Of a stretch of DNA of 64,000 nt, positions 1,287 to 62,239 are shown piece by piece (the first letter of the stretch is position 1; each line of letters begins with the position of its first letter). Both the position numbers and the translations under genes were made by a program. The stretch spans positions 15,671,808 to 15,735,807 of the forward strand of contig NC_088315.1 of the NCBI RefSeq assembly GCF_910592395.1, given 5' to 3'. The notes beneath the pieces are model-generated. The model saw only the letters and a list, made by a program, of their open reading frames with translations. It did no database searches and was not told the origin of the DNA. Source of the stretch: Lineus longissimus. Taxonomy: Eukaryota > Nemertea > Pilidiophora > Heteronemertea > Lineidae.

Positions 1287-2863
1287 CACTCATCAAAGAA
1301 AGTTAAGGACCACTTTTTATTTTTAACATATTTTTTTCACAGCACATATTAAGGACCAGAAAATGCCTAAATATGAATGTCCTGTATGACCTCCAAGACA
1401 CAGTAATCAATTTCACATGTGGTTTGTTCCAGTTGTTGCATAACTTCTTTCTAAACTTGTCACAACCTTAAAATGGGTGTTTTGGTGTGTCAACTTTTTC
1501 ACAATTTTAGCCTAAATGTCTTGTCAACAATGTCAGCATGGTCAGTAGCGAGTATGGCCTCCCCCTGCTTCATTAACAGCCTGACACCGCTGTCTCATTG
1601 AGTTTATCAGACGATTAACATCCCTGGCATCAATTGCATCCCATGCAGCCTCCAAGGCCACACCAAGCTGCTGCAACCCATTTGGCTGCACCTCAAGCGC
1701 TCCAATACTCCTTCCCATCATGTCCCAGACATGTTCTATCGGATTCAAGTCCGGGGCTTTCGCTGGCAAGTCCATACGCTCAATTCCACGATCCGCCAGG
1801 TACTGTGTCACCACCCTCGCTGTGTGGGGACGGGCGTTGTCGTCCATGAAAATGAAATTTTCCCCAGCGTTTTCTGCAAACGGAACCACGAAAGGTTCCA
1901 CGATTTCATCTCTGTACCTCACACCTGTAATTGCTCCCCCTGGGACCACATAGAGGCGAGTGCGTTGGCCGTAGCTGATTCCGCCCTACACCATGATGCT
2001 GCCTCCACCATAGCGGTCATGTTCAGCGATGCAGGCATCTGCAAATCTCTCTCCCTGTTGTCTCCAGACTCTAACACGTCCATCATTGTGGTCCAGGCTG
2101 AATCTGCTCTCATCTGAGAACAGAACACGGCGCCATTGCTGGTGGCTCCATCCCACATGATCACGAGCCCAATTGAGACGGATTCTTCTGTGAGCAGGGT
2201 TTAATGGGATGCATTGCAGTGGCCTCCTGGCATGGATGTCGGCTTTGTGAAGTCGGTTACGGATGGTTTGATTTGAAACCGTCACCCCAGTTGCAGCAGT
2301 GAATTGGTTATTGAGTCTGCGAGCACTACTGAAGCGGTTGCGACGACAAAGAGTCACTAAGTAGCGGTCATCCCTCGCAGTTGTTGCTGATGGGCGGCCA
2401 GTACGGGGTCTCTCTGAGTATCGCCCTGTCTCCCGGTGTCGTTGGTTAGCACGACTGATGACACTGTGAGACACACCCATCATCTCAGCTACTCGTCGCT
2501 GACTGAAGCCAGCTTCCAGCATCCCTATGGCTCGTGCAACCTCTACTTCACTCAAGTGGCATCTAGGCATCTCTCTTGTCAGAATGCTGCCTGAGCTTGG
2601 TGGGAAATGCAAGGAAAAGCACTTGCATGGACTTTTGTACCACTTTATGTGGTCAGCTGACACACCAAAAACATCCATTTTCAGGTTGTGACAAGTTTAG
2701 AAAGAAGTTATGCAACAACTGGAACAAACAACATGTGAAATTGATTACTGTGTCTTGGAGGTCATACAGGACGTTCATATTTAGGCATTTTCTGGTCATT
2801 AATATGTGCTGTAAAAAAATATGTTAAATATAAAAAGTGGTCCTTAACTTTCTTTGATGAGTG
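1287..2863 (-). mobile_element. Tc1/mariner-type DNA transposon (Tc1 family), U1 copy
   Basis: A 1577-bp element with inverted repeats of about 205 bp (1287-1493 and about 2656-2863). The tips read CACTCATCAAAG and CTTTGATGAGTG, and TA is duplicated on each side (1285-1286, 2864-2865). It contains one transposase gene on the minus strand, interrupted by a single stop codon. The orthologous copy in U3 lies at 32085-38265 and is split by another transposon. The insertion therefore predates the 30.8 kb duplication. Confidence 0.97.
1542..2570 (-). pseudogene. Tc1-family transposase, DD34E, one nonsense codon
   Basis: About 342 codons from the ATG at 2570, the usual length for this family. The N-terminal half is a paired helix-turn-helix DNA-binding region (ARAIGMLEAGFSQRRVAEMM, then a GRP-like motif RPRTGRPS). 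The DDE catalytic domain follows, with first Asp in LFSDESRF, second in FMDDNARPHTA, and Glu in PDLNPIEHVWD; 34 residues separate the last two. The only visible defect is TAG at 1986-1988, where the U3 copy has TGG (Trp in the segment SIMVWGGIS). The frame is the same on both sides of the stop. It would cut and paste the element at TA sites if intact. Confidence 0.93.
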
Positions 2864-3334: not shown

Positions 3335-3470
3335 CAGAGCATGCTCCGCACAAAACAGTGAACTCTTCACTGTCTCCATTTTCCACTTACACAGTAGACA
3401 GTTCACAGTTGGCCAGATGCTTTCGCCGTCTATTATCCGCTTCTTGAATTAACAATGAGTGGGCCCATAC

Positions 3471-9951: not shown

Positions 9952-12371
9952 TTTTACGGCCAGTTTGTTTCATCCCACGCTTCCTTAAATCGTCCTTCAG
10001 CTGAATTAGAGTCCAGGTTGTGTAATCTTCGCATTTTAACGGCATAATGCGGAATAAATCGATGAGCAGACGTGTGTGTGTGTGTTGTCATGATGTGTTA
10101 CAGTTGTTTACACTGTGGTTTGGCACGACCGGTCCAAGCGCTTGCAGCGCCACCGCATCACTTAGTTCTGCGGCCTTGTCGTCGGACACAAAATAGGACC
10201 GAAAGGCGTATACTCTAGAATCCCGCGGGAGAGAACAGATCTTCTGCAGCAGCGACATGACCGGCGATTGACCGATTCATTTAAAAACCCACCCACAACT
10301 TTACCACCAGCTCTATTTGACCAATCAGGATCGCCCATCATTTTGCTTTTGTGTTAATGTTGGCTTATTATAACATCATAACATACTCAAGTATTGATAC
10401 CACAACCAAGTTAAATTATTGATATTCGTGGCTATGAACGATCAGTTTGATTTGAATCGTCCACATGCATATGCGATTCAGCATGTGGTCACAGATTAGT
10501 CAATATACTCATTATGAATAAATGATAGGTCTTTAGAAAACCAGCGGTAAACAATGGTCACAAGTGCCGGTAAACTCTTGTCCTAAATACAATTTAGTGA
10601 TACACTAAAACTTCTTTTTGGGATGAATCGCTCATTTATTATAAACATGTTCTCTAGATGGTTACGTAACCTACAATTTAGCAAGATAGTAATATACTAC
10701 TGCGGTGCTATAGAAACAACCGAGAATAAAAGTGAATGAGGTACAGAAACGTCGCATACACACGTAACCGCAGATCAAGCATATTATAAAGACTGAGCGC
10801 TAGCTTAGACAAAAACTGATATAAAGGTCTGAACACACCAATGCAATTCCGCACCAACGCGGAAAAAACTTTTTTCGAAGACATTGTACGAGGCCAAGCA
10901 AACAACAAAGGTCAGCGTGAAACCGAGGCCTGAAATAAGAAAAAAAAGCTTAAGTGGGTTCAGGCCTTCAAAGGCACCTGTCTCTTTCATGCACTTTCGA
11001 TGACCGCGAAAAGTGCCCACATGGATGTTTCCGCATTTTGCCCTTTCCCATCACATTATGACCTTTTGAAATGTCAACATGACTTATCCTAGAGTAAATT
11101 AGTAATGAAGTGGGGCGATATATGAAAATGGAGTGAAATTGGCAACAGAACTGGCAAGATCGGAAGGAACTCAAATTTGTCATTAGAATGGATGCGAAAT
11201 AAGAGCACTTTCGAACCAAGTACTCAAATGGCTTCTGTTTCAAGATCCCGGATCCTGAAAAGCATCAACGGGGTGGATCTGGATCATTTATTTGGGTATA
11301 AAATACTCCAGGAACATTTCGCTACAGCAAACGCTTTTTTTCCCTCGTTGTCGATGGATGTTTCTCATTTAATGAATCGGGGCATTCTCTTTGCAACACG
11401 CTGTAGGCCCAGATACCGGTGTAGCAGTTTAAAATGTCCTAGAATAGAATGCCTGGGAAACAAAGGATTCTATTATGCGCTTCAATCTCTGAGCTATTGA
11501 CGGTCAGGGTCTCTATAGAACCATATTGCAGAATACAATAGGGCCGGACACTTTTTCCAGGGGGGCATTTGTTACTGTTTCACCGGCGTAAAGCCAGTCA
11601 AACCAGCTTCAAACACTGAATCAAACATACATGTAAGCGGGCCTGTACTATTAGTACATGTGTCCAGCCCACTTCAATACAAGTTACACCAATAAAGAAC
11701 GTTACGTTATCCAATGTAATTGATCCATTCTAAAGTCGCGCTGTGAACTTATGGCCACACCACCATGATAGTCAGAATATTTCTCCATACCGAGGTTGGT
11801 CATTGGCAAGTGGGCTGGCCACCGTTGGTGTGCCTATAATGTTCTCTCCCACGGAATTCTTGAGTATATGTATCTGAGTACTGCCCTTCCTTATGTGACA
11901 CAACCTCTTAACGTTTTAAGGAAGGAGGAAGTTCTAGTATTAAAGAGCGTCTATCGCTCAGCCGCAACTCCTCCAACAGGCTGTGGTACGCCCCATAGTG
12001 ATCTTGGACCTGGTCCGCTCTCTCTGCAATTTTTGACGACGTCTCTTCCGCCTCTCAACGCCAAATTGATAAAATATTTCATCATCGCGTCAGATCCTTA
12101 AATTAAATTGAGATTGAATTGGAAAGCTAAGCCATCAGTACTTAGCCTGGTACTAAGAAATCCCATCTTTATTTGTTTTCCCGAGAAAACCGTTTCGGGA
12201 GCTTAAACAATCATGCATGGCAGGAGGTCTAAAGGGCTAATGGCGAATATTGATCAGCGTTTAAAGGGACGTTTAAGATTTCGGGTTTGTCTCAGATTTA
12301 CTTGGCAGACTTGCACATGTAAACCCATACTCGCTGACACTTTCGCCTGATCGTTTGCATCTTTCATTTAG
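9952..12371. other. Long intron before LamG exon (U1)
   Basis: Collinear with 43280-47058 of U3 apart from the Kolobok-type insertion there. The empty target TTAA of that insertion is visible at 10950-10953. A short GT run lies near 10070. Open frames at 10708-11020 (minus) and 11177-11500 (plus) have no domain and no acceptor or donor support. Confidence 0.5.
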
Positions 12372-12901
12372 ACTTTATGGGAAAGTGTCCATCAAGGAAT
12401 CGTTCATATTTGGCAGAGTTCTTAGTATTGATCGTCAAAATGGATGTGCGACGGTGCCCCAAGTCGATATATTGGCGACTGGTGAATTCTCAGTCGCCGT
12501 ATTCATCAAATTGAGACAGAATAACTGGCCCCAGTTCCTTAAATTCGAAGTAGACAATTATATTGTCAGTATCCAGTTTCACGATTTTACGTTGCGTCTT
12601 GTATTTTGCAATGATAAATTCAATGTACGGGTTACCGGTTGTTTGCACTATGTAACAACGGCAATAACAAGTGGTTTGGGTCATTGGCAGTTTTTAGTTG
12701 GGTGTTTCAAAAACAAGTCAAAAGCAGCTTCGATTTATATTGATGGCAAAACGGTCAGAGTTCGAGAAATTTACATGAGCGGTTATCCTGCAAACAATGG
12801 TGTCGAAATTGGATGTGCTGGATTCCTTGGATTGATCTCGGAAGTTGTGGTCTTTCCTGTGGTCCTCACCAGCCTCTCCGTCATGGAAATATATCAGAAA
12901 T
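12372..12901 (+). CDS. LamG-like jellyroll exon, gene 1 (U1)
   Basis: A 530-nt exon between acceptor TTTCATTTAG and donor GTGAGT, phase 2 in and phase 1 out. It encodes about 177 residues with the layout of a laminin-G/concanavalin-like beta-sandwich: LATGEFSVAVFIKL near the start, GHWQFLVGCF, then SIYIDGK, and a closing GLISEVVVFP...MEIYQK segment. Such domains bind glycans or proteins outside the cell. Splicing to the 43-nt exon upstream and to the PAN exon at 18319 keeps the frame (T + AC gives Tyr). Compared with U3, changes cluster at 12751-12780. The family assignment rests on pattern only. Confidence 0.72.
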
Positions 12902-13088
12902 GTGAGTCAACCTCTTTGAAATATAATTCAAGTTTCGTCGAAAGTAATGTTGCCGCATGTTATCATGAGATTGAGTCGCACTCAAAGTGGACAAGAACAT
13001 CTGGTGAAGAGATGTAATGGGAGCGCGGTTTCCAACAAGAACACTACATGTACAGGTTGATTTCGGAGAACGTAGACCGCATTCAATA

Positions 13089-16337: not shown

Positions 16338-17986
16338 TTAAGTCAATTCTTCGTCCAAATCTACAAATTCTAGACCATTGTCTTCGATTTCAATGTTATC
16401 AAAATCAATAATGTCTTGATCAACATGATCTGGCACTGGCTCATCTCCTTGAAGCAGTCCGCACGCACGCCAGGCCGTATGGATTGCCTCTTCCGTTGTA
16501 GGGGCCCAGGAGTCGCTGATAATGCGCAAAAGCGTATCCCTAGTAATTGGCTCACAACGACCATGTTCATCATTACTTTGGATCTTCCAGGCCTTCCACA
16601 TTTTACGCATGTTGATTTTGAAGGAACGGATGACATTTTTATCAAATGGCTGGACCAAAGAAGTACATCTTCCTGGAACCAACTGGATAAAACCAGGCGC
16701 ATCTTCAATGTGATGCTGAACCTGGGCATTTCTATGGGCTGGGAACATGTCCCATATCAACAAAAATGGAAAGGCATCACCTTCAAAAGGGGAAGAGTGT
16801 CATTAACCTACGATAGTAGTGTCTGCCAGTTTGCCCAACCCGTTTCAGACCCGGTTACTCGGACATTGTCGGGTGCATTTTCCCTCAAATCCTGGATTAC
16901 TTTCCCGTCAGCCCTCAGTCCTCTGAGTATCACACTCGCAGGCATCTTTCTCCCATCCCTTGTAATCCCTAAAGTTACTGTACATCCTAGTTTCGGATTC
17001 CCTCGGGACGTGCGAAGATCAATTTGTTTTGCCCCCTTTTCATTGTATTGTATTGTATTGTATTGTATTGTATTGTATTGTATTGTATTGTATTGTATTG
17101 TATTGTATTGTGGCGCCATGTCAAAGAGAGCAAACGTTTCATTCATGTTTATCACAAGTTCAATCCCATTTTCATCAACCGTCTGGGTAACATTTTGCTG
17201 AAAATTGGCCACAAGTTCATCCGCGTTTTCGGGAATAGCCGTAACATTTTTGCATTGTTTCCTAAAACTAATACCGTTCCTAGAGAGAAAACCAGTTAGC
17301 CACCCTCTGGACGCCCTGAAGTTTGTTAATTGTGGCCGATGCTGCCGGTATTCCTGTTGCTGCTGTTCGGGAAGCACTGCCTAGCATGTTCGGAAAGACT
17401 GTTCAGCTTTAATCATCATGTAGTCACCCGAGACAGGTACCCCATGTTGTCGCCTTGTTGCCATCCATTCACGAACTGACCTGTCAACCTCTGGCCATAA
17501 GGCTGAAAAAAATGTGGACTTTAGAAAAGAACAATTTCAAATTTAAAGTTCCAGGTTCTCATGAAAATCAAATTTGAAAAGAAAATGACATGGAAGATGG
17601 CGTTAATTTTCTGTTAAAAGTACAATACAGCACTCACCAATGCCTCTTTGTCTTTGTCTGCGCCTGTTGACCTGCCTGCTCGTAGTTTCGCGATGTCTCT
17701 CTCGGAGGTCATCCTCTTCGCGGACCCATCGGCGCATAGTCCCGGAGGAGATGTTATACTCCCTGGCAAACTGGGGCGATGAAATCCCATGAGGCTGCCT
17801 GATGTTTTCGTTTTCATAGTCATCGAGCAGACGGATTTTCTCCGCCAGTGAATACGATCGGTGACGCCGAGCAGGAGGTTGTAAGGCATCGACATTTTCA
17901 TCAACATTATTGATGTCGCCATTATCCATTGGATGAACGAAATCAGAAAACATTATCAAAATGCCAAAAAAGACAGTGCACATCAT
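16338..17986 (-). pseudogene. pogo-type transposase, two exons, inactivated
   Basis: Exon 1 (17986-17638) ends at a GTGAGT donor and encodes a Psq-like helix-turn-helix (YSLAEKIRLLDDYE, then QFAREYNISSGTMRRW). A 135-bp intron (17503-17637) follows. Exon 2 starts LWPEVDRSVREWMATRR with a CENPB-type second helix-turn-helix (RASRGWLTGFLSRNGISFRK), then a DDE_1 domain. Defects: TAG at 17381-17383 where U4 has Trp; NMNETFALFDM where the family normally has an Asp (DET) as first catalytic residue; and a frame change between the middle part (to 16808) and the C-terminal part (16763-16338). The last part holds LLIWDMFPAHR and VQPFDKN. A pentanucleotide array lies inside the DDE domain. Confidence 0.88.
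17042..17111. repeat. (ATTGT)14 microsatellite inside the pogo DDE domain
   Basis: Fourteen perfect ATTGT units. On the coding (minus) strand they encode repeats of QYNTI between FDMAP and KGAKQIDLRTSRG. The U4 copy has nine units (51729-51773). The 25-bp difference is not a multiple of three, so U2 reads through in frame and U4 does not. Confidence 0.97.
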
Positions 17987-27784: not shown

Positions 27785-28764
27785 GTACTGAACCTGACCG
27801 GTCAGTTCCCCGGGCCTGTCGCAAGTGTGGATGGGGCGGCCATGGCGTATTGTGATGGTGTCGTGGAAAACATAACAGGAAATTTGATCACTACAACTGA
27901 ATTTCACCGGGCAAAACACCGGGTACACAAGCGGGTTTTTTAAACTGACGACGGCAAAAAGGCATGTGAACATTGACAACATTTTAGCAAGCTTTACAAT
28001 ATTCCTGGATGCAACACCATGTTGGCAAAATGTTGCATTGTGTGTAATTGAAAATACATTTTACAACATGTTGTTACATGTAAAAAGTTGTAAAAAGGTT
28101 GCAAATTAGATGCGAAACAATTCTTTGTTGCATGCTGCAAAAATGTTGTAAATTCTTCAGCCACCAGAAACCGGACAGTGGTCATGTCACTTTGACAAAA
28201 GAACATCACAATGCAACCCTACAATTTGACACAAAATAGGACCAAAAGGCTTACATATGCATCCGAGTGCTGCCCTTCATTTGTGGACACAGCCTTCACT
28301 CTTCAAGGAAAGAGGAAGTTCTAGTATCAAAGAGGGTTTATCGCTCAGCCGCAACTGGTTCAACAGGCTGTGATACGCCCCATGATCCTGGGCCACTCTC
28401 TATGCAATTTTTGACGACGTCACTTCCGCCTGTAAACGCCACATTAATAAAATATTTTTCATCATCGCGTTTAGATTCTTTAATTGAAATTGAATAGGAA
28501 AGTTATCTAAGCAATTACTTAGTCTTGTATCAAGCAATCCCATCCTAATTTAATTTTCCGAGAAAATCTGTTTTTTGTCTCGGGGCTTAAACACTCGTAC
28601 TGGGTAGGATGTCGAAAGGGCCACAGGGCTAATAGCGAATGTTGATCAGCCTTTTAAGGGATGTTTAAAATTTCAAGTTTGTCTCAGTCATTATTTGGCC
28701 GACTTGCACATGTAAACCTATACTCGCTGACACTTTCGCCTGATCGTTTGCATCTTTCATTTAG

Positions 28765-29288
28765 ACTTTATTGGAAAGTGTCCATCAAGGAATCGTTCAT
28801 ATTTGGCAGAGTTCTTAGTTTTGATCATCACAAGGGATGTGCGAGGGTGCCCCAAGTCGATATATTGGCGACTGGTGAATTCTCAGTCGCCGTATTCATC
28901 GTATTGAGACAGGACATCTTGCCTCCGTTCCTTAAATTCGAAGCAGATAATTATCAAGTCCTGCTCCAGCCCCACGGCTTTACGTTGCGTCTTATATTTT
29001 GCCATAAATCCGATAGACGGGTTACCGTTTCTTCGCACTATATAACAACCGGCAATAACGAGAATCGGTCATTGGCAGTTTTTGTTGGGTGTTTAAAAAA
29101 CAAGCCAAAAGCAGCTTCGATTTATATTGATGGCAAAAAGGTCAGAGTTCGAGAAATTCACATGAACGGTAATCCTAAAAAGAATGGTGTCGAAATTGGA
29201 TGCGATAGATTCCTTGGATTGATCTCGGAAGTTGTGGTCTTTCCTGTGGTACTAACCAGCCTCGCCGTCATGGAAATATATCAGAAAT
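28765..29288 (+). CDS. LamG-like jellyroll exon, gene 2 (U2)
   Basis: Open throughout, with the same acceptor and GTGAGT donor as U1 and U3. It is six bases (two codons) shorter, so the phase is kept. The fold-defining segments are conserved (GEFSVAVFIVL, SIYIDGKKVRVREI, GLISEVVVFPVVLTS). Variation is spread widely but includes the same loop as in U1 versus U3 (KKVRVREIHMNGNPKKN here). Its natural partner PAN exon at 31825 is broken, so the product would be truncated or altered. Confidence 0.68.
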
Positions 29289-29849
29289 GTGAGTCAACCT
29301 CTTTGAAAAATGAAGTTTTGTCGAAAATAATGTTTCCGCATGTAATCATGAGTTTTCTTGTCGTTCGCGATCCCTTTCCGTATCCCTCTCTGAAACCACC
29401 TATCCTCTTTGTCGAGGATCAACACATCCGTGGTGTCCAAAGGATGTCACGGACATTTTCAGGTGAGAGTAGACAGCCAAAACGTATCCACTGGTTCTTG
29501 CTCATCTCTGCTGGCACATACGAGAGGTTTGTCTTTATGGTCCACTACCTTCTGTCTCAGCGTATTGCCTGGTTTGAACGTCATTGGAAATCCTGCAGCC
29601 GAGGAAATCCTTTTAGGTTTAATTTCTCCGACAGACTTAGTATGTCGGGGATTGATTCTCGTTCTCTTTGCTGGTGCGTTTGGTATGGCGCCTTCTTCGT
29701 TCTTACCACTGAGTGCTTTCTGAAAGCCAACCTATCGTAACCGCACTTGCCTAAGACAGAACGCAGGGATCCTGTTCGCTTTCCTAGTCCTAAACTTGGT
29801 CGTTCGGCTCGAAAAGAATAGTGCGAATCACCCCAAGATTGTGTTTTAG

Positions 29850-30090: not shown

Positions 30091-31824
30091 TCGATCATTC
30101 TCAGTGAAGCCCTTTCTGAGGAAATCTCGTTGTGCCCACAGAAGGCATGATCGAAACATCAAACATCTGCTGTACAATGAATATCTTATTTTGCATTAAT
30201 TTATCCAACCCCATGCATGACCAAATGTAATCTAAGCATTCCGATTTTGCTCAATCGGCTGATAACATTGTGCGTACTTGAAAATTAATTCTGTGAAGGT
30301 GAATAAGTGCCAAATCATATCATTGCAAAGCGTTATGGCAAAGGATAGAATGTCCATAGAACAACGGATTCTATGATGCGATATCAATCCCTCCCCCCCC
30401 CCCACCCCTCTACGCGTAATGACGGTCTTGATCTCTATAGAACATACTCCATCATCCGTCTGAATACTATAGGGCTTGACATTTTTCCAGGAGGATTTTT
30501 TCCACTGCTTCACCGGTGCTCATTCTTCAAAGAAATTGTTTGACCCTGAAATGAACGCAAACACGACAAATCTCGTGCATAACTTAGTCTTAAGTAACGG
30601 TTAAGTCTTGGCATGATGGAACTACTGTAGAAATTGCAATACGTGACCGCCACTGAAAATCAGAAGAAGCTTAGATTTTTATCTAAACATAGTCAGGCAG
30701 CTCCCCGTCCAAACCATTGGATGAATAGGTCTTGTCATCAATTTCATTAGAGGGTGGGTTATGTTATTACCCGAATGACTTGACCGGCCCACCTTGACCT
30801 AACACCACAAGGCCCTTTCAAATAAGAAAATGTGGCCGTGAACATATATATTAATTAAAGAATCTTGCCCTTTTCTGGATTCGCGCAGCGGTAGCTTATT
30901 GCAATTTCTACAGCATTCTGGCCTCATGTGCACATCCTTAACCTCAGCCTATCCTATTTTCATCGCTATGCAAAAGGACACGAACTTCAATTTTTTCCAT
31001 CTCGATTTCCAGTCACTGGCAGAAAAGAAGGACTTTCGATAGGTATTGTGCCAATTTAGAATTTTTGACTAAAACATGCACATGATGATATACGGTGTGA
31101 AGGATTAATCAGGTTAGCTTCTTGAAGTGTGGTTGTTCAAGATCGGTCAGAAAAAACAGACTCTTTTAATTTTCGCTATAACCTCTGCAAATATAAATAT
31201 TTTGCCCTAGATTTCTCTGGCAGGGGTGGGATACCGGCACCGCCATAGCTTTGAAATGAAAACAGTTTTTATTAGACAATCTGAATTCTCACAAACTTTG
31301 TATGCGACTCTTTTTTTCGGGAACAAAATGTATACGGCCGACCCCCAACTTTTCGCACCTCTATTTTTACAAATGTAGAAATATTACCGCGACGCAAAAC
31401 GTGGTAAGATCACTATTCCCACCTTCGGTGCTGTTCTTACTCTCATGCTAACCATTGCATATGTTTTGTTGTTGTTCAATTCTGGCGTTCATTGAATTTC
31501 CCCGTTTGCAAATATTTCAGTCATTATTGTCACTATAAGGTCCGGGAGCTGAGCGACTTTTATGTAACATACAAGCAACAAATGATTTGAATGTGTTGAG
31601 GGATAGAGTACGCCTACCTGACCATAGAAACCCAATTCTTAAGGCTTTCCAGTGGTGGCTGTAGGAGATAGAAGGGTTCGAATGTAATGGCGGTTACGTT
31701 GGCGCAGCCACAAGGCGTTGCATTTCATACCAAAAAGTTACCTCACTGCTGTCATACATGTACTTGTAACCAAAGACACTTTAATTTGGCTGTTCATGTT
31801 ACTTGTAACTTTATTCAATTTCAG

Positions 31825-32082
31825 ACAATATATTCTGTAAATAAAAACGGATGCCAGTTCAAACCGACGCAATATCAGTCAGATCAAGGATTACTGCACC
31901 GTTGACTGTGGTATTTGGAATTGGTTCTACATAATGACCAAGGCCAAGTGTCTATGAGTGCAGTATAAACCAGGTCGGCGTGTCTGTCAAGTCATCAGCA
32001 AGCTTTTAGCGTCAAAGACTCCGAGGCCGGGTGGTATTAATAACAAATCCCAAGTTAAATGCATCCCTCCTACGCTATATAC
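31825..32082 (+). pseudogene. Broken PAN/apple terminal exon (U3)
   Basis: Near-copy of 1027-1284 with the same TAA early in the exon (31842-31844), the same one-base deletion and a TGA at 31955-31957, followed by the Tc1 insertion. The lesions therefore predate the 30.8 kb duplication. It lies where gene 2 should end. Confidence 0.75.
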
Positions 32083-32887
32083 TACACTCATCAAAGAAAG
32101 TTAAGGACCACTTTTTATTTTTAACATATTTTTTTCACAGCACATATTAAGGACCAGAAAATGCCTAAATATGAATGTCCTGTATGACCTCCAAGACACA
32201 GTAATCAATTTCACATGTGGTTTGTTCCAGTTGTTGCATAACTTTTTTCTAAACTTGTCACAACCTTAAAATGGGTGTTTTGGTGTGTCAACTTTTTCAC
32301 AATTTTAGCCTAAATGTCTTGTCATCAATGTCAGCATGGTCAGTAGCGAGTATGGCCTCCCCCTGCTTCAATAACAGCCTGACACCGCTGTCTCATTGAG
32401 TTTATCAGACGATTAACATCCCTGACATTAATTGCATCCCATGCAGCCTCCAAGGCCACACCAAGCTGCTACAACCCATTTGGCTGCACCTCAAGCGCTC
32501 CAATACTCCTTCCCATCATGTCTCAGACATGTTCTATCGGATTCAAGTCCGGGGATTTCGCTGGCAAGTCCATACGCTCAATTCCACGATCCGCCAGGTA
32601 CTGTGTCACCACCCTCGCTGTGTGGGGACGGGCGTTGTCGTCCATAAAAATGAAATTTTCCCCAGCGTTTTCTGCAAACGGAACCACGAAAGGTTCCACC
32701 TGTAATTGCTCCCCCTGGGACCACATAGAGGCGAGTGCGTTGGCCGTAGCTGATTCCGCCCCACACCATGATGCTGCCTCCACCATAGCGGTCATGTTCA
32801 GCGATGCAGGCATCTGCAAATCTCTCTCCCTGTTGTCTCCAGACTCTAACACGTCCATCATTGCGGTCCAGGCTTAATCTGCTCTCA

Positions 32888-33317
32888 GAGACAAGACCAC
32901 AATTGATTTTCCAAGCCATTTCCAGTTATTTAAAATGCCTGCCATTAAAGAATGCGTGGAGCTGTGAAACTGAAATTCGGATATGATATACGGGTTAGTC
33001 TTGCGAGTAACTGGTGCGATGGAAATTGGTGATTGACCACGGAAATTTTTTTTAAAATTGACAAGTTTGACACAAGTGGACATTTTTACCCATTTCGGCC
33101 ATTTTCACTCCAAATTTGAACCACCCCCCTATGGCCAGGTTGTCAAAATTCAAAATTATTTTTTTACCAAACAATTTATTTATATCTGTAGACTTGCCAC
33201 AGCAAATATTTTTTCAATACCTCTCCAAATATGTACTTGAGAGTAAAAAACATGCACTCGTCTAATAGATAGGCCTGGACCCTCCAACCTATGAATATTC
33301 ATTAGTGGTCTTGTCTC
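32888..33317. repeat. Left 430-bp terminal direct repeat with own inverted ends
   Basis: Identical to 37081-37510 except one extra C in a C run and one fewer T in a T run. The first and last 13 bases are perfect inverted repeats, as in a stand-alone MITE. No coding potential. Confidence 0.97.
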
Positions 33318-34045
33318 AATGAAGAGGGATAATCTTGAGATATCAATGAAATATGCCTTTTCCCAAGCATTTGAGATGTCTTGACTAACATAACCAAGTT
33401 TCATCAAAAATGAACTTGATTTGAGCGAGCTATTAACGTTTTAAAATGTTGTCCGATACGGACAACCTACCTTATATTTCGTCTTCAAATTGTTTACAGA
33501 CTGTCTTCAAGTTAAGCTCATTAACTCGTAGAATTCTTAATCGAATGGTACCGAATCTTCGACAAATCACCAGTGGTCTACAGTCAATCTGAAATAGGAA
33601 TTTGAAACAATTTTAATTCATGAGAAATATTCAAAAATTTCAATTTTTTGGAAAAAAGTTGTCTTTTTAAAGGATGTTCCAAGGTTGTGACAGTGGTATC
33701 ATGCTGAAAATGTCAAAATTTCAAATCGAACAATATTAACTTTGTCTGAAATTTGAAAAACAACAAATATATGATGCATTATAAGCATGGAAAGCTTGTT
33801 AGTAAGGTGTGAAATGAGAAAAAGATTAACCCATATGTTATCTCCCTGTCTGTCACATCCAAGTCTGACACTTCCACAACAGCAACCATTGTCATCGCTA
33901 TTGTCCTATCAACATCGACCCTTTTGTAATCTCTTGTCCTTTCTTTTGTATTTTCAGTCTGTTGAAGGAAGCATCCCGAAATAGACATCTCCTAGGAGTA
34001 CGATTTTAAGCGAAGAAAGACAAGTATACGAAAAGACAAGACAAG
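33318..34045. other. 5' non-coding region of the composite transposon
   Basis: AT-rich leader of about 0.7 kb between the left repeat and the transposase ATG. It presumably contains the promoter, but no clear TATA or initiator could be assigned. Confidence 0.4.
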
Positions 34046-36250
34046 ATGAGGACAAAGGCGAGGAGATTGATAGGAAAACGGGGTTCTCCGAGGCGTGCTA
34101 GGGCATCGAATGCAGCAATGAGAACAATGTTCAAGAGCGGACACGTGCGGAGTGGAGGTGTCGAGGTGGTGAGCGACGACGAACGAGAAGTAGGCCTACA
34201 ACCCACATGGAGACGACTCACGCCCCAGGAGTACGGACAGGTCACAACGATGGGACACGACGGCAAAAGACACATACCGGATATTAATAACCGTACTGCC
34301 AAGAATGTCAACTTACTACGGCTGAACATGAAAGAAGACACTGATGATGAGATGGAGATACCAGATGAGACCATGGAGCATGATCACGAGAGTTTCGTTG
34401 TTCAGACAACCAAACTGATGGATGTGCTCAACGACGTTAACAGGGCCCATAGCGAATATCACGTGAACTGTCAGCCGATATTCAAATATGGAGAGGTACG
34501 TAAGCAGGGGGTGTGTTGTTCAGTCACTGTGGTGTGTAAAAACTGTGGTTTTTATTCGAAATTGTATAAACTTTTTGAGGACATAGACACTGGCAAGCGC
34601 GGACGAAAAGCCGCTCTTCCAAATGTTGCATTACAGATTGCGTTGCAGGACACAATGATTGGCAACGAGAGTATGAGTTACATACTGAGCATGATGGGAA
34701 TCCCGCCCCCCTGTAGGAGTATCATGCAAAAGCAGGCAAATAAGGTTGGTGATGAAACAGTTAAAATGAATGTGGCCGATATGGCAGACATACGCGAGAA
34801 CTTGAAAAGGATACTGCGCCTAAGAAATCAGGACGACACAGGAATCAATGTCCAAGCTGATGGACGCTATAATAGTTTACACCTCACTTCGAGGAACAAG
34901 ATGGGCCGTTGTGCGAGCACAATGACTGGATTATGTGTTGAAAATGTGACAGATGAACACAAAATCATTGACATTGAGGTTAAAACAAAACTCTGCTGGA
35001 TAGGGGCTGCAATGCGGGCGACAGGTTTTGAAGTTAAATGTGGTGCCACTGGCACAAACGTTGACGAACGACACTCGAAGTGCACGGCTAACTTTCCTGA
35101 AGCAGATGCATTCAGAGAATATGATCTTGGGGTTGCATTTGCCGAGACTTTTGAGAAACAGGGCCTACATGTAGAACATTTGACTACAGATGGTGATTCC
35201 AGTTCATTCAAAGGGTTAACTGATGCAACAAAAAAGCTCTTCGGCGGCTTGTTCACGGTGAAGCATCAACTTGACTCTATACATTTGCATCAAGCCCAGA
35301 CGCGTGCAGGACATAGAGCTGAATTCAGTAAAGGTATGTTCCCGGGACGTACTGCTGAGGAGAGAACACTGTTAAAAACAACGTTTCTGAATGATCTTAG
35401 GGTAAGGTCATCCAAGATTTTGCAATCTCTATTCAAGCGCTGCAACGGTGATCTTGACAGGATCATGGGATACCTGTATGACACTGTTGCCTGTGTTGTG
35501 AACTGTTATGGTGGTGACTGCACTGGTTGTCCACAGAACGAATTCTCACTGTGCTCAGGCACAACTGGTTCTTGGTGGCACAAATCAACACGATGGTCAT
35601 CTTACGGTGAGATTCCCAAGTTTAAAATGACAGTGATTGACAAGAACTTGGTACATCTCGTTTTGGAGGTATGCCTTAGTAAAGGAGCGTTGCAACAGCT
35701 GAGTCTTGGCGTGACAACCCAGGGGGTCGAGTCCAAGAATCGAGGTCTGTCGGCCAGCGATCCTAAGATTGTGACCAGGAGCAGGAACTCAACCCCTCGT
35801 ATCCATTCAGCAGCCCACAGAATGAACCATAACATAGCCGAGAGCGGGCGACGGAAACTAAAGTGGTTCAACATTGAAGTCGATACTTGTTGCCGCCCAA
35901 TGAAAGCACTGGACAGAATTGCAATGAACAGGCAGTACACAGTCAGGTACCAACGGAGTGCTAGACACCAGAAGTTAGCTGGTGTTTTGAAAAACATCAG
36001 GGCAACAGATTACTTCACCAAAAAGAAAAACAAAACCAGGGGTGGTGACTACAAGAAACATGTGATGATAACAATGCCGGACTTGCGAAGGAAGGCTGTC
36101 AAGAAGGCTGTTGCACGACGAGACAGACCGCCTGTACCAGAGTGGAAATGTCTCGACCCAAACAGCAGAAACTATGACCACTCCTACTTTCGGCGATCCT
36201 TCAAGATCCAACCAGCCACCAAGACATCCAAGAGGTTGCCATCGCGGTAA
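34046..36250 (+). CDS. Mutator-like DDE transposase, 734 aa, intact
   Basis: One uninterrupted frame from ATG (ACAAGATGAGG) to TAA. Residues 1-50 are basic. A CC..C..C cluster is at 157-167 (GVCCSVTVVCKNCGF). Candidate catalytic residues are Asp272 (NVQADGRYN), Asp382 or Asp384 (TTDGDSSSF) and Glu562 (GVESKNRG). MFPGRTAEER is at 431-440 and a Cys knot at 487-503 (CYGGDCTGCPQNEFSLC). This order matches the Mutator-like transposase domain found in many invertebrate proteins. It is followed by a basic tail. The enzyme should cut the element ends for transposition. The last 50 nt overlap the convergent endonuclease gene. Confidence 0.85.
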   Translation: MRTKARRLIGKRGSPRRARASNAAMRTMFKSGHVRSGGVEVVSDDEREVGLQPTWRRLTPQEYGQVTTMGHDGKRHIPDINNRTAKNVNLLRLNMKEDTDDEMEIPDETMEHDHESFVVQTTKLMDVLNDVNRAHSEYHVNCQPIFKYGEVRKQGVCCSVTVVCKNCGFYSKLYKLFEDIDTGKRGRKAALPNVALQIALQDTMIGNESMSYILSMMGIPPPCRSIMQKQANKVGDETVKMNVADMADIRENLKRILRLRNQDDTGINVQADGRYNSLHLTSRNKMGRCASTMTGLCVENVTDEHKIIDIEVKTKLCWIGAAMRATGFEVKCGATGTNVDERHSKCTANFPEADAFREYDLGVAFAETFEKQGLHVEHLTTDGDSSSFKGLTDATKKLFGGLFTVKHQLDSIHLHQAQTRAGHRAEFSKGMFPGRTAEERTLLKTTFLNDLRVRSSKILQSLFKRCNGDLDRIMGYLYDTVACVVNCYGGDCTGCPQNEFSLCSGTTGSWWHKSTRWSSYGEIPKFKMTVIDKNLVHLVLEVCLSKGALQQLSLGVTTQGVESKNRGLSASDPKIVTRSRNSTPRIHSAAHRMNHNIAESGRRKLKWFNIEVDTCCRPMKALDRIAMNRQYTVRYQRSARHQKLAGVLKNIRATDYFTKKKNKTRGGDYKKHVMITMPDLRRKAVKKAVARRDRPPVPEWKCLDPNSRNYDHSYFRRSFKIQPATKTSKRLPSR

Positions 36251-36794
36251 GAAAACTTTCAAATGTCAATTCAATATAATGATATTTTCTTTCAACTTCA
36301 ACATATAGCTTACCAGGAAAAATGCATTTAGGGCGGTTGCCATGGCCTGCACAGACTTTCTTGGCATTGCACCTTTTTCTACTTTGATTGACCCTTCCTC
36401 TTTCTATTGTCAAGTGCTCGACTTTCACGCACAGAGGATTATGACAAAGATGACTTATATGATAACCTGCGCCAGTTTTGAATTTCAATTCATCATGGTC
36501 ACACAAAAACATTGCCCGGTGTGCCGTCATTGTGACCGGCTTATCTAAAAAACTTACTTTAACAAACCCGTATGTTACCCCCCTCTTTTTTTGTTTAGCC
36601 CCCTCCCAATTCAAACAAAAACCATTACTTTTAGTCTTTGCTAATATTCTTGCTCGTAATTCAGATACTTTTCTCTTGAATTCACCTGCTGAAATAAAAA
36701 AATTAGTGAAAGCTTGGTACCCTGCCACCCAGCGTGCTCTGTGCCCGACACCTCCCAAAATGAAAATAACATGCAAAACAATCAACACTTTCAT
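36201..36794 (-). CDS. His-Me finger (HNH-type) endonuclease, 197 aa
   Basis: Open frame convergent with the transposase. The core is residues 90-160: AHRAMFLCDH, then HISHLCHNPLCVKVEHLTIE (catalytic His region plus zinc ligands Cys117, Cys122, His127), Asn136, and C-terminal ligands in RCNAKKVCAGHGNRPKC. This is the zinc-binding loop arrangement of homing-endonuclease-type His-Me nucleases. The first 17 residues are hydrophobic and may be a wrong start; a later in-frame start would keep the domain. All expected ligands are present. It might nick DNA during transposition or act as a cargo nuclease; neither is shown. Confidence 0.8.
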   Translation of the reverse strand: MKVLIVLHVIFILGGVGHRARWVAGYQAFTNFFISAGEFKRKVSELRARILAKTKSNGFCLNWEGAKQKKRGVTYGFVKVSFLDKPVTMTAHRAMFLCDHDELKFKTGAGYHISHLCHNPLCVKVEHLTIERGRVNQSRKRCNAKKVCAGHGNRPKCIFPGKLYVEVERKYHYIELTFESFLTAMATSWMSWWLVGS

Positions 36795-37080
36795 TACTAT
36801 TCACAATTGATGATTGTTATGAAACATATCTAGCCCAAAAAAGTAGAAAAATTTGAAATTATTTGAAATTTTTTGAAAATTTCAATTTTTGGCATTTTCA
36901 CTTAAAAGCCCTGTAGGCCAGGGGGGGGGGTTAAATTTGAGAATTTTCTTTTTTTCCACATTTTCCAATTTCAATGATATGTCCACACATTCTCAACACA
37001 TTTCAGCCAATTCAAACGGTTTTTGTGGATTTCAGAGCTCATTTACTATTTTTGACCTGTAACCCAAAACCCTCTAAATA
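36795..37080. other. Spacer between endonuclease gene and right repeat
   Basis: T- and A-rich, with a G run near 36920. It would hold the promoter of the minus-strand endonuclease gene. No motif stands out. Confidence 0.4.
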
Positions 37081-37510
37081 GAGACAAGACCACAATTGAT
37101 TTTCCAAGCCATTTCCAGTTATTTAAAATGCCTGCCATTAAAGAATGCGTGGAGCTGTGAAACTGAAATTCGGATATGATATACGGGTTAGTCTTGCGAG
37201 TAACTGGTGCGATGGAAATTGGTGATTGACCACGGAAATTTTTTTTAAAATTGACAAGTTTGACACAAGTGGACATTTTTACCCATTTCGGCCATTTTCA
37301 CTCCAAATTTGAACCACCCCCTATGGCCAGGTTGTCAAAATTCAAAATTATTTTTTTTACCAAACAATTTATTTATATCTGTAGACTTGCCACAGCAAAT
37401 ATTTTTTCAATACCTCTCCAAATATGTACTTGAGAGTAAAAAACATGCACTCGTCTAATAGATAGGCCTGGACCCTCCAACCTATGAATATTCATTAGTG
37501 GTCTTGTCTC
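37081..37510. repeat. Right 430-bp terminal direct repeat with own inverted ends
   Basis: Second copy of 32888-33317 in direct orientation. It ends GTGGTCTTGTCTC directly against the CTCA duplication. No primer-binding site or polypurine tract adjoins either repeat, which argues against a retroviral-type LTR. Confidence 0.96.
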
Positions 37511-38267
37511 CTCATCTGAGAACAGAACACGGCGCCATTGCTGGTGGCTCCATCCCACATGAACACGAGCCCAATTGAGACGGATTCTTCTGTGAGCAGG
37601 GGTTAATGGGATGCATTGCAGTGGCCTCCTGGCATGGATGTCGGCTCTGTGAAGTCGGTTACGGATGGTTTGATTTGAAACCGTCACCCCAGTTGCAGCA
37701 GTGAATTGGTTATTGAGTCTGCGAGCACTACTGAAGCGGTTGCGACGACAAAGAGTCACTAAGTAGCGGTCATCCCTCGCAGTTGTTGCTGATGGGCGGC
37801 CAGTACGGGGTCTCTCTGAGTATCGCCCTGTCTCCCGGTGTCGTTGGTAAGCACGACTGATGACACTGTGAGACACACCCATCATCTCAGCTACTCGTCG
37901 CTGACTGAAGCCAGCTTCCAGCATCCCTATGGCTCGCGCAGCCTCTACTTCACTCAAGTGGCATCTAGGCATCTCTCTTGTCAGAATGCTGCCTGAGCTT
38001 GGTGGGAAATGCAAGGAAAAGCACTTGCATGGACTTTTGTACCACTTTATGTGGTCAGCTGACACACCAAAAACACCCATTTTCAGGTTGTGACAAGTTT
38101 AGAAAGAAGTTATGCAACAACTGGAACAAACAACATGTGAAATTGATTACTGTGTCTTGGAGGTCATACAGGACGTTCATATTTAGGCATTTTCTGGTCC
38201 TTAATATGTGCTGTAAAAAAATATGTTAAATATAAAAAGTGGTCCTTAACTTTCTTTGATGAGTGTA

Positions 38268-40260
38268 TATACTGCGTGTGATTTAAATAATTTGTAGTAG
38301 CACGATCAAACAGTTGGAATAAGGAGAACTTTTAGGAGTGATATTGTTGTGCTGATGTCGTCGTATCTTGTCCGCCGTATGCCATTGCATCAGTCAACAA
38401 TGGTGGTATTTTGTTCATCAGTTATGAAACTTCAAAACTGGTCTGTAATGTCTTATGAAAACATAGCCTGACATACCTAAAACCATCTTCAATATCCTAA
38501 GTGCTTCAGTACAATTCCAGTTTTACAATTTTACAGAGTATTCTGAGCCATCTTTTTCACGGAGTTTTAAAATCTAAAAAATCAATCAAATCCTATTTTC
38601 GATTTCAATATCTTTGAGAGCTTATAGCTCGAAAACTGAAAGGAAGAACCAAAATCGCCATAACCGTGGTTAAATCAGCATCGACTTGCCTGTGTATCAC
38701 AAAATGGAAAATGGATAGCAGTCCACACTCCGCAGAACAGGCGCAGCAAGTTGATTTTGGAATATTGTGAAAATCGTCTTTTTTTAGGAATATTTACAAT
38801 AATGATATGAAAATGAAAATATTTCGGTTTGGGTATTAAAGTTTATAGATAATATTCATTGCAGGATTCGGTTGAGTATTTCTATGGCTTACAATATCAT
38901 TCAGTTTTTGGTTCATTTCAAGCTTTACGTGATGTACCATGGAACGTTTCATTTACTTGTTTATTTTGGCTTGTTTAAAACTTGAAACGAGCCAAATTAA
39001 GTGGGCCTATGTGAATAATTGCATTTTTATTTGATGCAAGTATAAACTCTTGCAATCAAATTAAATCTATAAAACTTAATCTTCAATTTCATTTTTGGAA
39101 CGCTTATTTGGTTCGTTTAGTCGCCAAGTGGATTTGAGGTTTTGAATTTCGGCTGTACCATTAGCAACATTGTTTTGCTTTTGTCTAGAGTGGTAAGCCA
39201 ACAGAGCTTGGCCTGTTTCATTTTTGGTCGTTTCAACATTTACTGCCAAAGAATTTAATCCGGAAAGATTGGTTGTTGCTCCTACCAACTATCAGGTATG
39301 CACTACTTGTTGCCCTTGATGTATGAAGAGGCACCCTAAACTAACGTTTTGCTTCAAATATGAGCGAGTATTCATCCTCATCGTCATCATCATATAACTA
39401 TGTAGGTTGCTAATAACCCTCACGAGTCTTGGCGAATTCTGGATGGTTGTGCTAAACAAAAATAGTGTATGTCAAATAACTCTAAATAACTGCTAATGAG
39501 AAGAGAAAACGTCAAGGTAACTGGCAGCCACAGAAATGAAGTGCGGGTAATTATTTTTATCCTTGAGAAAATTCTAATTTTAGTGCTGAAACGAGGATTT
39601 AGTCATACGTTCATATGATAGCGACAGCTGGGTCAATCAAATTCGAGCACACTATTACAGAGCCGATATAATAACTCGCTTTCAGTATTACAAACAAATA
39701 GATGCTGGTCTAACAAGCCCTCGCCTCTATTCCGCATTGATGAAATAATGTTTTAACACTAAATATATCAATTTATATCGATAACTTGCTGTGCAAAGCC
39801 TGTGAAATTGTATAGTATCAAGCAGTGGTTTTTACAATGCGAAAAGATTAAAGAAGGCTGAATGATTTGTTATCTGGTCGATCGATATTTCGACTACTTT
39901 TTAGTCACGAAATAAAGCTTATGTTTCTGTTTTATTCCGTACTGCCAATTCATCTCACACACACGGTACATTTGCCAGCCGCAATCAAAGAGGCCTTGGT
40001 GACCAGGTGGTGTCATCATATCACATAGTATCTCAACTCCACTGTGTTTATTCAGGTTTGAAGCTCGAGAAACACTGGAAAATCAACGACGCTTTCTCTC
40101 TCTGTCTTTCCTAGTTTTAGTTGCTACTTATTCTTCCAATCATCAGCAAAGGGAGATTTGAAAAACGTGTCAACCTCTGTCCGACGGGCGCTGCAGCTGT
40201 TATTTTAATTGTTTTGACCATAATCACCTTAACATGGACTGATTGGCTACGACGTTACAG
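38268..40260. other. Spacer before gene 3 (U3)
   Basis: Collinear with 2866-3334 plus 6096-7609 of U1; the join at the CCGCAGA microhomology is near 38733. No gene is supported. Confidence 0.5.
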
Positions 40261-45640: not shown

Positions 45641-47058
45641 GTGGGTTCAGGCCTTCAAAGGCACCTGTCTCTTTCATGCACTTTCGATGACCGCGAAAAG
45701 TGTCAACATTGATGTTTCCGCATTTTGCCCTGTCCCATCACATTATGACCTTTTGAAATGTCAACATGACTTATCCTAGAGTAAATTAGTAATGAAGTGG
45801 GGCGATATATGAAAATGGAGTGAAATTGGCAACAGAACTGGCAAGATCGGAAGGAACTCAAATTTGTCATTAGAATGGATGCGAAATAAGAGCACTTTCG
45901 AACCAAGTACTCAAATGGCTTCTGTTTCAAGATCCCGGATCCTGAAAAGCATCAACGGGGTGGATCTGGATCATTTATTTGGGTATAAAATACTCCAGGA
46001 ACATTTCGCTACAGTAAACGCTTTTTTTCCCTCGTTGTCGATGGATGTTTCTCATTTAATGAATCGGGGCATTCTCTTTGCAACACGCTGTAGGCCCAGA
46101 TACCGGTGTAGAAGTTTAAAATGTCCTAGAATAGAATGCCTGGGAAACAAAGGATTCTATTATGCGTTTCAATCTCTGAGCTATTGACGGTCAGGGTCTC
46201 TATAGAACCATATTGCAGAATACAATAGGGCCGGACACTTTTTCCAGGGGGGCATTTGTTACTGTTTCACCGGCGTAAAGCCAGTCAAACCAGCTTCAAA
46301 CACTGAATCAAACATACATGTAAGCGGGCCCATACTATTAGTATATGTGTCCAGCCCAATTCAATACAAGTTACACCAATAAAGAACGTTACGTTATCCA
46401 ATTTAATTGATCCATTCTAAAGTCGCGCTGTGAACTTATGGCCACACCACCATGATAGTCAGAATATTTCTCCATACCGAGGTTGGTCATTGGCAAGTGG
46501 GCTGGCCACCGTTGGTGTGCCTATAATGTTCTCTCCCACGGAATTCTTGAGTATATGTATCTGAGTACTGCCCTTCCTTATGTGACACAACCTCTTAACT
46601 TTTTAAGGAAGGAGGAAGTTCTAGTATTAAAGAGCGTCTATCGCTCAGCCGCAACTCCTCCAACAGGCTGTGGTACGCCCCATAGTGATCCTGGACCTGG
46701 TCCGCTCTCTCTGCAATTTTTGACGACGTCTCTTCCGCCTCTCAACGCCAAATTGATAAAATATTTTATCATCGCGTCAGATCCTTAAATTAAATTGAGA
46801 TTGAATTGGAAAGCTAAGCCATCAGTACTTAACCTGGTACTAAGAAATCCCATCTTTATTTGTTTTCCCGAGAAAACCGTTTCGGGAGCTTAAACAATCA
46901 TGCATGGCAGGAGGTCTAAAGGGCTAATGGCGAATATTGATCAGCGTTTAAAGGGACGTTTAAGATTTCGGGTTTGTCTCAGATTTACTTGGCAGACTTG
47001 CACATGTAAACCCATACTCGCTGACACTTTCGCCTGATCGTTTGCATCTTTCATTTAG
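45641..47058. other. Intron before LamG exon (U3)
   Basis: Near-identical to 10954-12371. No additional exon or element was recognised. Confidence 0.5.
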
Positions 47059-47588
47059 ACTTTATGGGAAAGTGTCCATCAAGGAATCGTTCATATTTGG
47101 CAGAGTTCTTAGTATTGATCGTCAAAATGGATGTGCGACGGTGCCCCAAGTCGATATATTGGCGACTGGTGAATTCTCAGTCGCCGTATTCATCAAATTG
47201 AGACAGAATAACTGGCCCCAGTTCCTTAAATTCGAAGTAGACAATTATATTGTCAGTATCGAGTTTCACGATTTTACGTTGCGTCTTGTATTTTGCAATG
47301 ATAAATTCAATGTACGGGTTACCGGTTGTTTGCACTATGTAACAACGGCAATAACAAGTGGTTTCGGTCATTGGCAGTTTTTAGTTGGGTGTTTCAAAAA
47401 CAAGTCAAAAGCAGCTTCGATTTATATTGATGGCAAAAAGTTCAAAGTTCGAGAAATTATAACGAACGGTTATCCTGCAAACAATGGTGTCGAAATTGGA
47501 TGCGCTGGATTCCTTGGATTGATCTCGGAAGTTGTGGTCTTTCCTGTGGTCCTCACCAGCCTCGCCGTCATGGAAATATATCAGAAAT
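47059..47588 (+). CDS. LamG-like jellyroll exon, gene 3 (U3)
   Basis: Same length and splice sites as the U1 exon; open throughout. Most of the sequence equals U1. Eight of the base differences fall at 47438-47467 and change Thr-Val-Arg to Lys-Phe-Lys and Tyr-Met-Ser to Ile-Thr-Asn on either side of VREI. Other changes (Gln to Glu, Leu to Phe, Ser to Ala) are also non-silent; only one silent change was noticed. Joining to the PAN exon at 53117 keeps the frame. Confidence 0.72.
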
Positions 47589-47775
47589 GTGAGTCAACCT
47601 CTTTGAAATATAATTCAAGTTTCGTCGAAAGTAATGTTGCCGCATGTTATCATGAGATTGAGTCGCACTCAAAGTGGACAAGAACAGCTGGTGAAGAGAT
47701 GTAATGGGAGCGCGGTTTCCAACAAGAACACTACATGTACAGGTTGATTTCGGAGAACGTAGACCGCATTCAATA

Positions 47776-60488: not shown

Positions 60489-62239
60489 CTGCACCTCTAA
60501 ACTTACCACTGTAATGATCATCATCCCTAAGGATTTTTTCATTGTTCTAATTATCTTTACCGCAATAATAACAGTTTCAGTTATCCTTATCCAACTCAAA
60601 CTTTTCTTGCTCTTCGCTAGTCCATTCCATTTCTACTTCTGTATTTAAAAGTTTCCCAAATTCATCTTCCTTCTGCATTAATCATTCACAAAACCAATCA
60701 ACCACATCCTCCACGCGGTATGAAAAATATGCGCTTTCAAAAAGTTCTGGATAATCTGAATGAATGTAACACCCCACCGCAGAGGCGTTTTGTATTTTCA
60801 ATCGCTTGGTTTTTTCTGACCCCTCATCGATAACACTTACTAGAACACCCTCAGAATCATTTAAATTATCACTAGTTGCTTCGAAATCGGCGTACACCAT
60901 GAAAGGAACCCTATTTTTAAACGAGTGGTTTTTAAATTTTAGGTTTGCTGCTGCGCTTCCCTTCTTCGGCATTTTGACTTTGCAATAATCATGTACCCCA
61001 CATTTCTTTTTATGATAAACTAGAGTTATTTCCCTATCAAAAGCATTCATACACCTTCCATATAAATATTTTTTATTACTGCTATTATTACGAAAAAACA
61101 CAGATCTATTTTTCAGTAGCATATAATGCTCTTGGTAGTACAAAATATATATTACATTTTCATCCTCAAAATTATCAGATAGATAGAGTGGTTCCAAAGT
61201 GTTGTCTAACAGATTATTTAACTGCTTATTAGTTCCAAACGGTTTCACCAACTCAAAAATATTAATCTTCAAATTATTTTCTCTTTCAATTTTTGGCATG
61301 TCTTTTTTTACACATACTGGAAAATTATATATTTTTATTTTATCTTCATATATCCTGTAGGAGCTAGCATTACAATGGTGATTAGTTGGTTCGTAATGTG
61401 CTGCTAGAAACTCCACAAAAAAACACTTCCCGTCATTACATTGTACGTACATTAATTATCGAATTAGATTTGAAAGGAAGTTTAATAAAGTGCCCGCCTT
61501 TGGTGTCTCTGTACGCAACTAAAAATAAATCCGCTCTGTTTATCTTTTTAAGTGTCAGTCCACTTCCTTTAAAATCATTTTTGTACGGCAACTTCTGGTT
61601 TTGATTTTTTTTAAACAACCTCAAATGGAGTTTGGATGCCATGAATCTTTAAAAAAAGAAGCTTTAGTGAAGTTAGCTTCCACATTAATACTTATCTCAA
61701 AATGATGGCTTATTAGAACTGACAAAATCTCAACAAATTTCTCTTTGTAATTCGACAAGTCTGTTACTACTTGTGGTTGTCTAAATTGCACAGTTACAAA
61801 ATCTGAAGGTAAATGTTTTTTCCTTTCTTCCAAATTTTTTACTATTTCTATTCCTTTAATTTTCCCCGCCATTGACAAAAAATCTTCCCTTTTTTCTGTG
61901 AGTTGTGAGGTATTACTAGAACTGCTAGTAGGCAGTGTGACATACGGCGAGGCCGGTTCTTCCTCTGGAGGAGTCGGTTCTTCACTAAGTGGGGGAAGCT
62001 CATTCTTAGGCGTTAGTGTTCTATTTAATTCCTCTAATAGTTTTTTTGTGTTAATTTTATGTTTTTCAGATTTTAGGTGGTGGTTGTAGTTTTTCTTTAA
62101 AACTTCAGAAAGCCAATCTCGACAAAATTCCTTTTTAGGTTGATACTATATTCGTTCCATTTAAGATTTTTTTTTTTTTTTAATTGTTATAGACTTGATA
62201 ATTCGTCTATTTAAGAAAAAATAGTATTATAAAAGGAGG

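Follow-up and report, generated by a model that had tools for sequence, protein, structure and literature searches.

A KolobokP-like DNA Transposon with Convergent Transposase and I-PpoI-like Nuclease Frames, and Its Empty Site in a Paralogous Copy of the Locus

Structure of the Element

The window analyzed here is a 64-kb stretch of DNA, and all coordinates are positions within it, position 1 being its first letter. It contains an element of 4623 bp, in which an internal region (INT) with two convergent genes lies between two long terminal direct repeats (LTDRs). The element interrupts a Tc1/mariner-type copy, and the corresponding site in a paralogous copy is empty. The following features were delimited:

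32083..38267, minus strand: host Tc1/mariner-type copy with TIRs of about 200 bp, its transposase split by the insertion (repeat search, sequence, Pfam)
32884..32887, no strand: left target-site duplication (TSD), CTCA (sequence and empty-site comparison)
32888..37510, plus strand: whole KolobokP-like element, LTDR-INT-LTDR, 4623 bp, its limits set by the paralogous empty site
32888..33317, plus strand: left LTDR, 430 bp, with 13-bp TIRs at 32888-32900 and 33305-33317
33318..37080, plus strand: INT, 3763 bp, containing both genes
34046..36250, plus strand: DDE transposase, 734 aa (PF20700 and motif inspection)
36201..36794, minus strand: I-PpoI-like His-Cys box (His-Me finger) nuclease frame, 197 aa (PF05551 and alignment with I-PpoI)
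37081..37510, plus strand: right LTDR, 430 bp, with 13-bp TIRs at 37081-37093 and 37498-37510
37511..37514, no strand: right TSD, CTCA (sequence and empty-site comparison)
2109..2112, no strand: paralogous empty site with a single CTCA, within an uninterrupted Tc1-type copy at about 1274-2875

Self-alignment of the two LTDRs in direct orientation gave 0 substitutions over 429 aligned positions and two 1-nt length differences, both of them in homopolymers. Each LTDR carries at its ends a perfect 13-bp TIR, GAGACAAGACCAC, and the termini of the element are GA..TC. With up to 2 mismatches allowed, this TIR was found at 5 places in the window against 0.89 expected by chance; four of these matches are exact and all lie at LTDR ends, while the fifth, at 28178, has 2 mismatches. 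Both the sequence and the empty site place the 4-bp TSD, CTCA, at the borders of the whole 4623-bp unit. Within the 64-kb window there were no further LTDR matches of at least 150 bp, neither a solo LTDR nor a multimer was seen, and a search against Rfam at gathering scores found 0 matches.

The left LTDR contains just one perfect palindrome of at least 10 bp, ATGAATATTCAT, at LTDR position 404. It was considered as a homing site within the LTDR and rejected, because a palindrome of at least 12 bp arose in 264 of 2000 Markov resamples; this one is no evidence of a homing site.

The INT begins with AATG (33318-33328 end) and finishes with AATA (37070-37080 end), and just within both ends lies an AGAGGG/CCCTCT inverted pair (33318-33328 and 37070-37080). 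The AATG/AATA ends resemble the TATA/TATA interior ends of one published KolobokP family (Kojima and Bao 2022).

Encoded Proteins

The two convergent frames, of 734 and 197 aa, are present where a sequence-only reading of this DNA had placed them. When the INT was resampled 300 times under a first-order Markov model, the longest ORF had a mean of 105 aa and a maximum of 266 aa, so the 734-aa frame greatly exceeds what chance produces, while the length of 197 aa is unremarkable and the nuclease frame therefore rests on its profile match.

In Pfam, residues 119-495 of the 734-aa frame matched the profile PF20700, 'Mutator', at 1.7e-52. The families found at E up to 1 were this one and two unrelated ones (0.16 and 0.24), with no classical MULE profile among them, and at the same limit the transposase had no match among solved structures. 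Residue roles were assigned by inspection, without a reference alignment. The putative catalytic triad consists of D272, D382, and E562, the last lying beyond the PF20700 match, and the C/DxxH signature appears as D410xxH413. A Cys cluster (C487/C492/C495/C503) is located between DxxH and the presumed last E562, and a C..C..H..C set (C317/C332/H343/C346) follows the first D.

The 197-aa frame matched PF05551, zf-His_Me_endon, a profile for the zinc-binding part of homing endonucleases (2.5e-13). Its PDB matches at E up to 1 were 4 distinct sequences, all of them I-PpoI and all weak (best 0.021). From S114 to C142 the frame aligns ungapped with I-PpoI S97-C125, through the active site, and residues S114/H115/H127/E131/N136 pair with S97/H98/H110/E114/N119 of I-PpoI, whose roles were taken from Kojima and Bao (2022; PMC9587614). 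The profile match and this active-site alignment bear out the homing-type His-Me nuclease that had been proposed from the letters of the DNA. Three cysteines, C117, C122, and C142, likewise pair with I-PpoI C100, C105, and C125. By the numbers that we take to be those of the I-PpoI zinc ligands, 4 of the 8 His/Cys ligands are aligned (C117, C122, H127, and C142); C60, C148, H151, and C157, placed by inspection, are candidates for the remaining ones. Here, C60 may match I-PpoI C41, and C148, H151, and C157 could complete the second zinc site.

AlphaFold predictions made without alignment had a mean pLDDT of 37.2 and 32.5 for the two proteins, and both models were unusable. Among IMG/VR viral contigs, which are uninformative for an animal element, no relative of either protein was confirmed and each had one unconfirmed pattern match.

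As read, the transposase frame (plus strand) and the nuclease frame (minus strand) overlap by 50 nt, at 36201-36250. The sequence-only reading had noted this overlap, and it holds for the open frames, but the true frame ends, and hence the overlap of the genes, are uncertain because of splice-like sites nearby. Our splice scan was crude, with a hand-made scoring matrix that commonly gives false positives. On the minus strand its two best acceptor-like sites are 36688 and 36685, and a donor-like site, 36313, lies near the end of the nuclease frame; on the plus strand the best acceptor, 33958, lies just 5′ of the transposase frame, and a donor-like GTAAG spans the transposase stop at 36247. The scan's proneness to false positives is evident: the best minus-strand donor, 36557, falls within the nuclease domain, and on the plus strand the transposase contains four donors that outscore 36247. 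About 35 residues at the start of the nuclease, plus its tail, may be intron read-through.

Assignment to KolobokP

A lineage of the Kolobok superfamily named KolobokP was described by Kojima and Bao (2022, Mob DNA 13:24, PMC9587614), and our comparison draws on the portion of that paper available to us. It comprises 228 families, autonomous and nonautonomous together, from 7 animal phyla. In most of them the direct strand encodes a transposase, and the opposite strand encodes, further downstream, a nuclease resembling I-PpoI (PMC9587614). The order and strands of the two genes are the same here.

The published KolobokP LTDRs are about 450 or about 660 bp long and have TIRs of 11-18 bp with 5′-RR..YY-3′ ends (PMC9587614). 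In the present copy the LTDRs, of 430 bp, are slightly below the published 'around 450', while the 13-bp TIRs and the GA..TC termini fall within the description. TSDs of 3-4 or 4-5 bp are reported for the lineage (PMC9587614), and the 4-bp CTCA lies inside this range. All the nuclease residues given for KolobokP by I-PpoI numbering (S97, H98, H110, E114, and N119) are retained, and the transposase motifs, namely C/DxxH, the Cys cluster before E, and CCHC after the first D, are present. Thus, six features of the lineage (LTDR, TIR and ends, TSD, gene order, nuclease residues, and transposase motifs) were found in this copy. Its size of 4623 bp lies inside the range of the autonomous KolobokP families of oyster, 4,022-4,748 bp (PMC9587614), and nothing contradicting membership was found in the comparison with the available published description. 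Kolobok in general has a TTAA-specific 4-bp TSD, whereas here the TSD is of 4 bp but reads CTCA; TTAA is not required of KolobokP, for which no strong target preference is reported (PMC9587614).

Judged by these features against the published description, the element is very probably a KolobokP DNA transposon monomer. Its transposase is probably of Kolobok type rather than Mutator, since motifs and architecture fit KolobokP. The sequence-only reading knew of no well-described animal system in which a DDE transposase is paired with a His-Me nuclease. That discovery claim falls, as the pairing was published in 2022 (PMC9587614) and is already known: it is a standing two-gene system, no accident of a single copy. 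By title and the start of the abstract, no second paper of this kind was found among the matches listed. What the present analysis adds to the earlier observations are the limits 32888-37510, the LTDRs, and the empty site within the same window.

Possible Role of the Nuclease

If transposase and nuclease form a standing system, then we can ask: What would each of them do? The answer is less certain for the nuclease than the identity of the element. Judging from the family, the DDE transposase would recognize the short inverted ends of the LTDRs and would move the whole element and sometimes single LTDRs. Both the TSD and the empty site speak for transposition of the whole unit. The nuclease might cut within an LTDR, or where LTDR ends abut in a circular intermediate; LTDR-INT units might then be restored or multiplied by repair or by recombination between LTDRs.

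This part of the scheme we hold tentatively, at somewhat less than even confidence. That the LTDR or the abutted ends of a circle are cleaved and then undergo recombination or repair is the proposal of Kojima and Bao (PMC9587614), as is the idea, also raised in the sequence-only reading, that the nuclease makes breaks for copying. Their support is comparative and consists of solo LTDRs, multimers, and excision footprints; in the part of the paper available to us no enzymology of the KolobokP nuclease was found. The simple monomer described here neither supports nor contradicts their proposal.

Another reading accepts the element as KolobokP and takes the nuclease for selfish homing cargo without a role in movement. 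The likeness of this nuclease to group I intron homing enzymes would suit such cargo, and some KolobokP families, two of them named, apparently lack the nuclease, though decay is possible there (PMC9587614). Nevertheless, in most families it occupies one and the same position and orientation, and its active-site residues are conserved; multimers and solo repeats fit, indirectly, a role in recombination (PMC9587614). We regard mere cargo as rather unlikely.

A more specific idea, which we consider unlikely, is that the natural target of the nuclease is the junction of two element ends in a circle or tandem. In the hypothetical junction, absent from the present copy, the 13-bp arms end in GTCTC, which about 4 bp of spacer separate from GAGAC. 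As noticed post hoc, the junction would be a palindrome around a 4-bp centre, the geometry of the 4-nt staggered cut of I-PpoI. The I-PpoI site includes the half CTCTC. The half-site GTCTC, also compared post hoc, is one base off that half, and the other half of the site has no match. Cutting at abutted TIRs has been suggested in general terms (PMC9587614); the spacing and the half-site match are not part of that suggestion. If this idea is true, circular intermediates would be opened by a homing enzyme whose stagger is that of the target duplication, and both enzymes would act in one pathway.

In the literature searched we found no test of the joint action of a homing-type nuclease and a DDE transposase in an animal transposon. 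With two open frames, LTDRs free of substitutions, and an empty site in the same window, the present copy is useful and a good start for testing such cooperation.

Empty Site, Duplication, and Age

Self-comparison of the window detected a duplication of tens of kb, in which positions 2-22362 (copy A) resemble 30800-56774 (copy B). In the seven blocks of the self-comparison table, with gap columns set aside, the copies differ at 186 of 19142 aligned positions (0.97%). Around the insertion, block 2-2112 of copy A matches 30800-32887 of copy B and block 2109-3334 matches 37511-38736; CTCA occurs once in the empty copy and twice, on either side of the element, in the occupied one. Because the duplicate keeps an empty site with a single CTCA, the whole LTDR-INT-LTDR entered in one piece, and a single insertion of 4623 bp is the simplest reading. 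This joint entry confirms that both frames lie inside one transposon, as the sequence-only reading had supposed.

Each copy also holds stretches that are absent from the other. One such stretch of copy A, missing from copy B, includes tandemly repeated units of about 81 bp (3466-4243). The Tc1-type copy at 1274-2875 fits a TA insertion into a diverged repeat (about 89-92% identical), and other copies of that repeat, at about 18578 and 53376, look empty, which gives a layered order of events.

How old is the insertion? Were the LTDRs as old as the duplication, the chance of 0 substitutions in 429 positions would be about 0.015. Set against the 0.97% divergence of the duplicates, this suggests that the element was inserted after the duplication, although gene conversion between LTDRs could blur the dating. 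The element looks like a young, intact, recently inserted copy. The duplicate, at about 1% divergence, could have arisen by genuine tandem duplication or through the joining of two haplotypes during assembly; if the latter, two alleles differ by the insertion, and the empty site stays valid.

Alternatively, the element could be older than the duplication and have been lost later from copy A, which would then be no ancestral empty site. Excision of single LTDRs has been inferred in other copies (PMC9587614), which lends this history some footing. However, copy A keeps one intact CTCA with its neighboring bases, while excision seldom spares the flanks, 1-5 bp having been lost on one side in six cases (PMC9587614). 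The comparison of 0/429 with 186/19142 also speaks against equal age, with the same reservation about gene conversion. We consider loss from copy A very unlikely and retain insertion after the duplication.

A chance composite of two short non-autonomous elements around an unrelated gene pair, toward which the resemblance of each 430-bp repeat to a complete small TIR element might point, is rejected as scarcely credible by the empty site, which with the single 4-bp TSD around the whole unit fits one insertion, and by the recurrence of identical architecture and gene pair in published families (PMC9587614).

Other Features of the Window

Three ORFs, at 12355-13017, 47042-47704, and 28661-29740, are related to each other; the first has a Laminin_G_3 match (5.1e-09), and the last a weak match (0.0024), below its cut-off. 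The ORF at 16808-17377 on the minus strand matches the Tc5 transposase DNA-binding domain (6.7e-05) and contains, several times, a repeat translated as YNTIQ. A 256-aa ORF at 60682-61452, also on the minus strand, matched no Pfam family at a limit of E 0.01; by motif it presumably recalls a Polinton-type DNA polymerase B.

Comparison with Known Systems

MULEs, including MuDR, have a related DDE transposase, and in maize MuDR a second, convergent gene is present as well. Their usual TSD is about 8-11 bp. Could the present element be a true Mutator-like element that captured the gene of a homing-type nuclease as cargo? The name that Pfam gives to the transposase profile, Mutator, favors this, and the earlier designation 'Mutator-like' stands as far as the PF20700 match goes. 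It probably does not extend to Mutator in the narrow sense. The 4-bp TSD is outside the usual MULE range, no classical MULE profile appeared among the Pfam matches at E up to 1, and the LTDR architecture is a further difference. The Cys cluster that we placed by inspection between DxxH and E is absent in MuDR according to the available text of PMC9587614. TSD, Cys cluster, and architecture together lead us to reject the Mutator identity, to which we give hardly any probability, in favor of KolobokP.

I-PpoI (PDB 1evw, 1cz0, 1a73) is an enzyme of a group I intron, whereas the nuclease here is encoded in a DNA transposon, and the overall similarity between the two is weak (E 0.021).

The lineages KolobokD and KolobokE share with the present element a Kolobok transposase, an accessory nuclease, and the CCHC set (PMC9587614). 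In contrast to the I-PpoI-like nuclease found here, their accessory enzymes are DEDDh or lambda-exonuclease-like, and in the published description, as far as available to us, the LTDR architecture is given for KolobokP only and not for KolobokD or KolobokE (PMC9587614).
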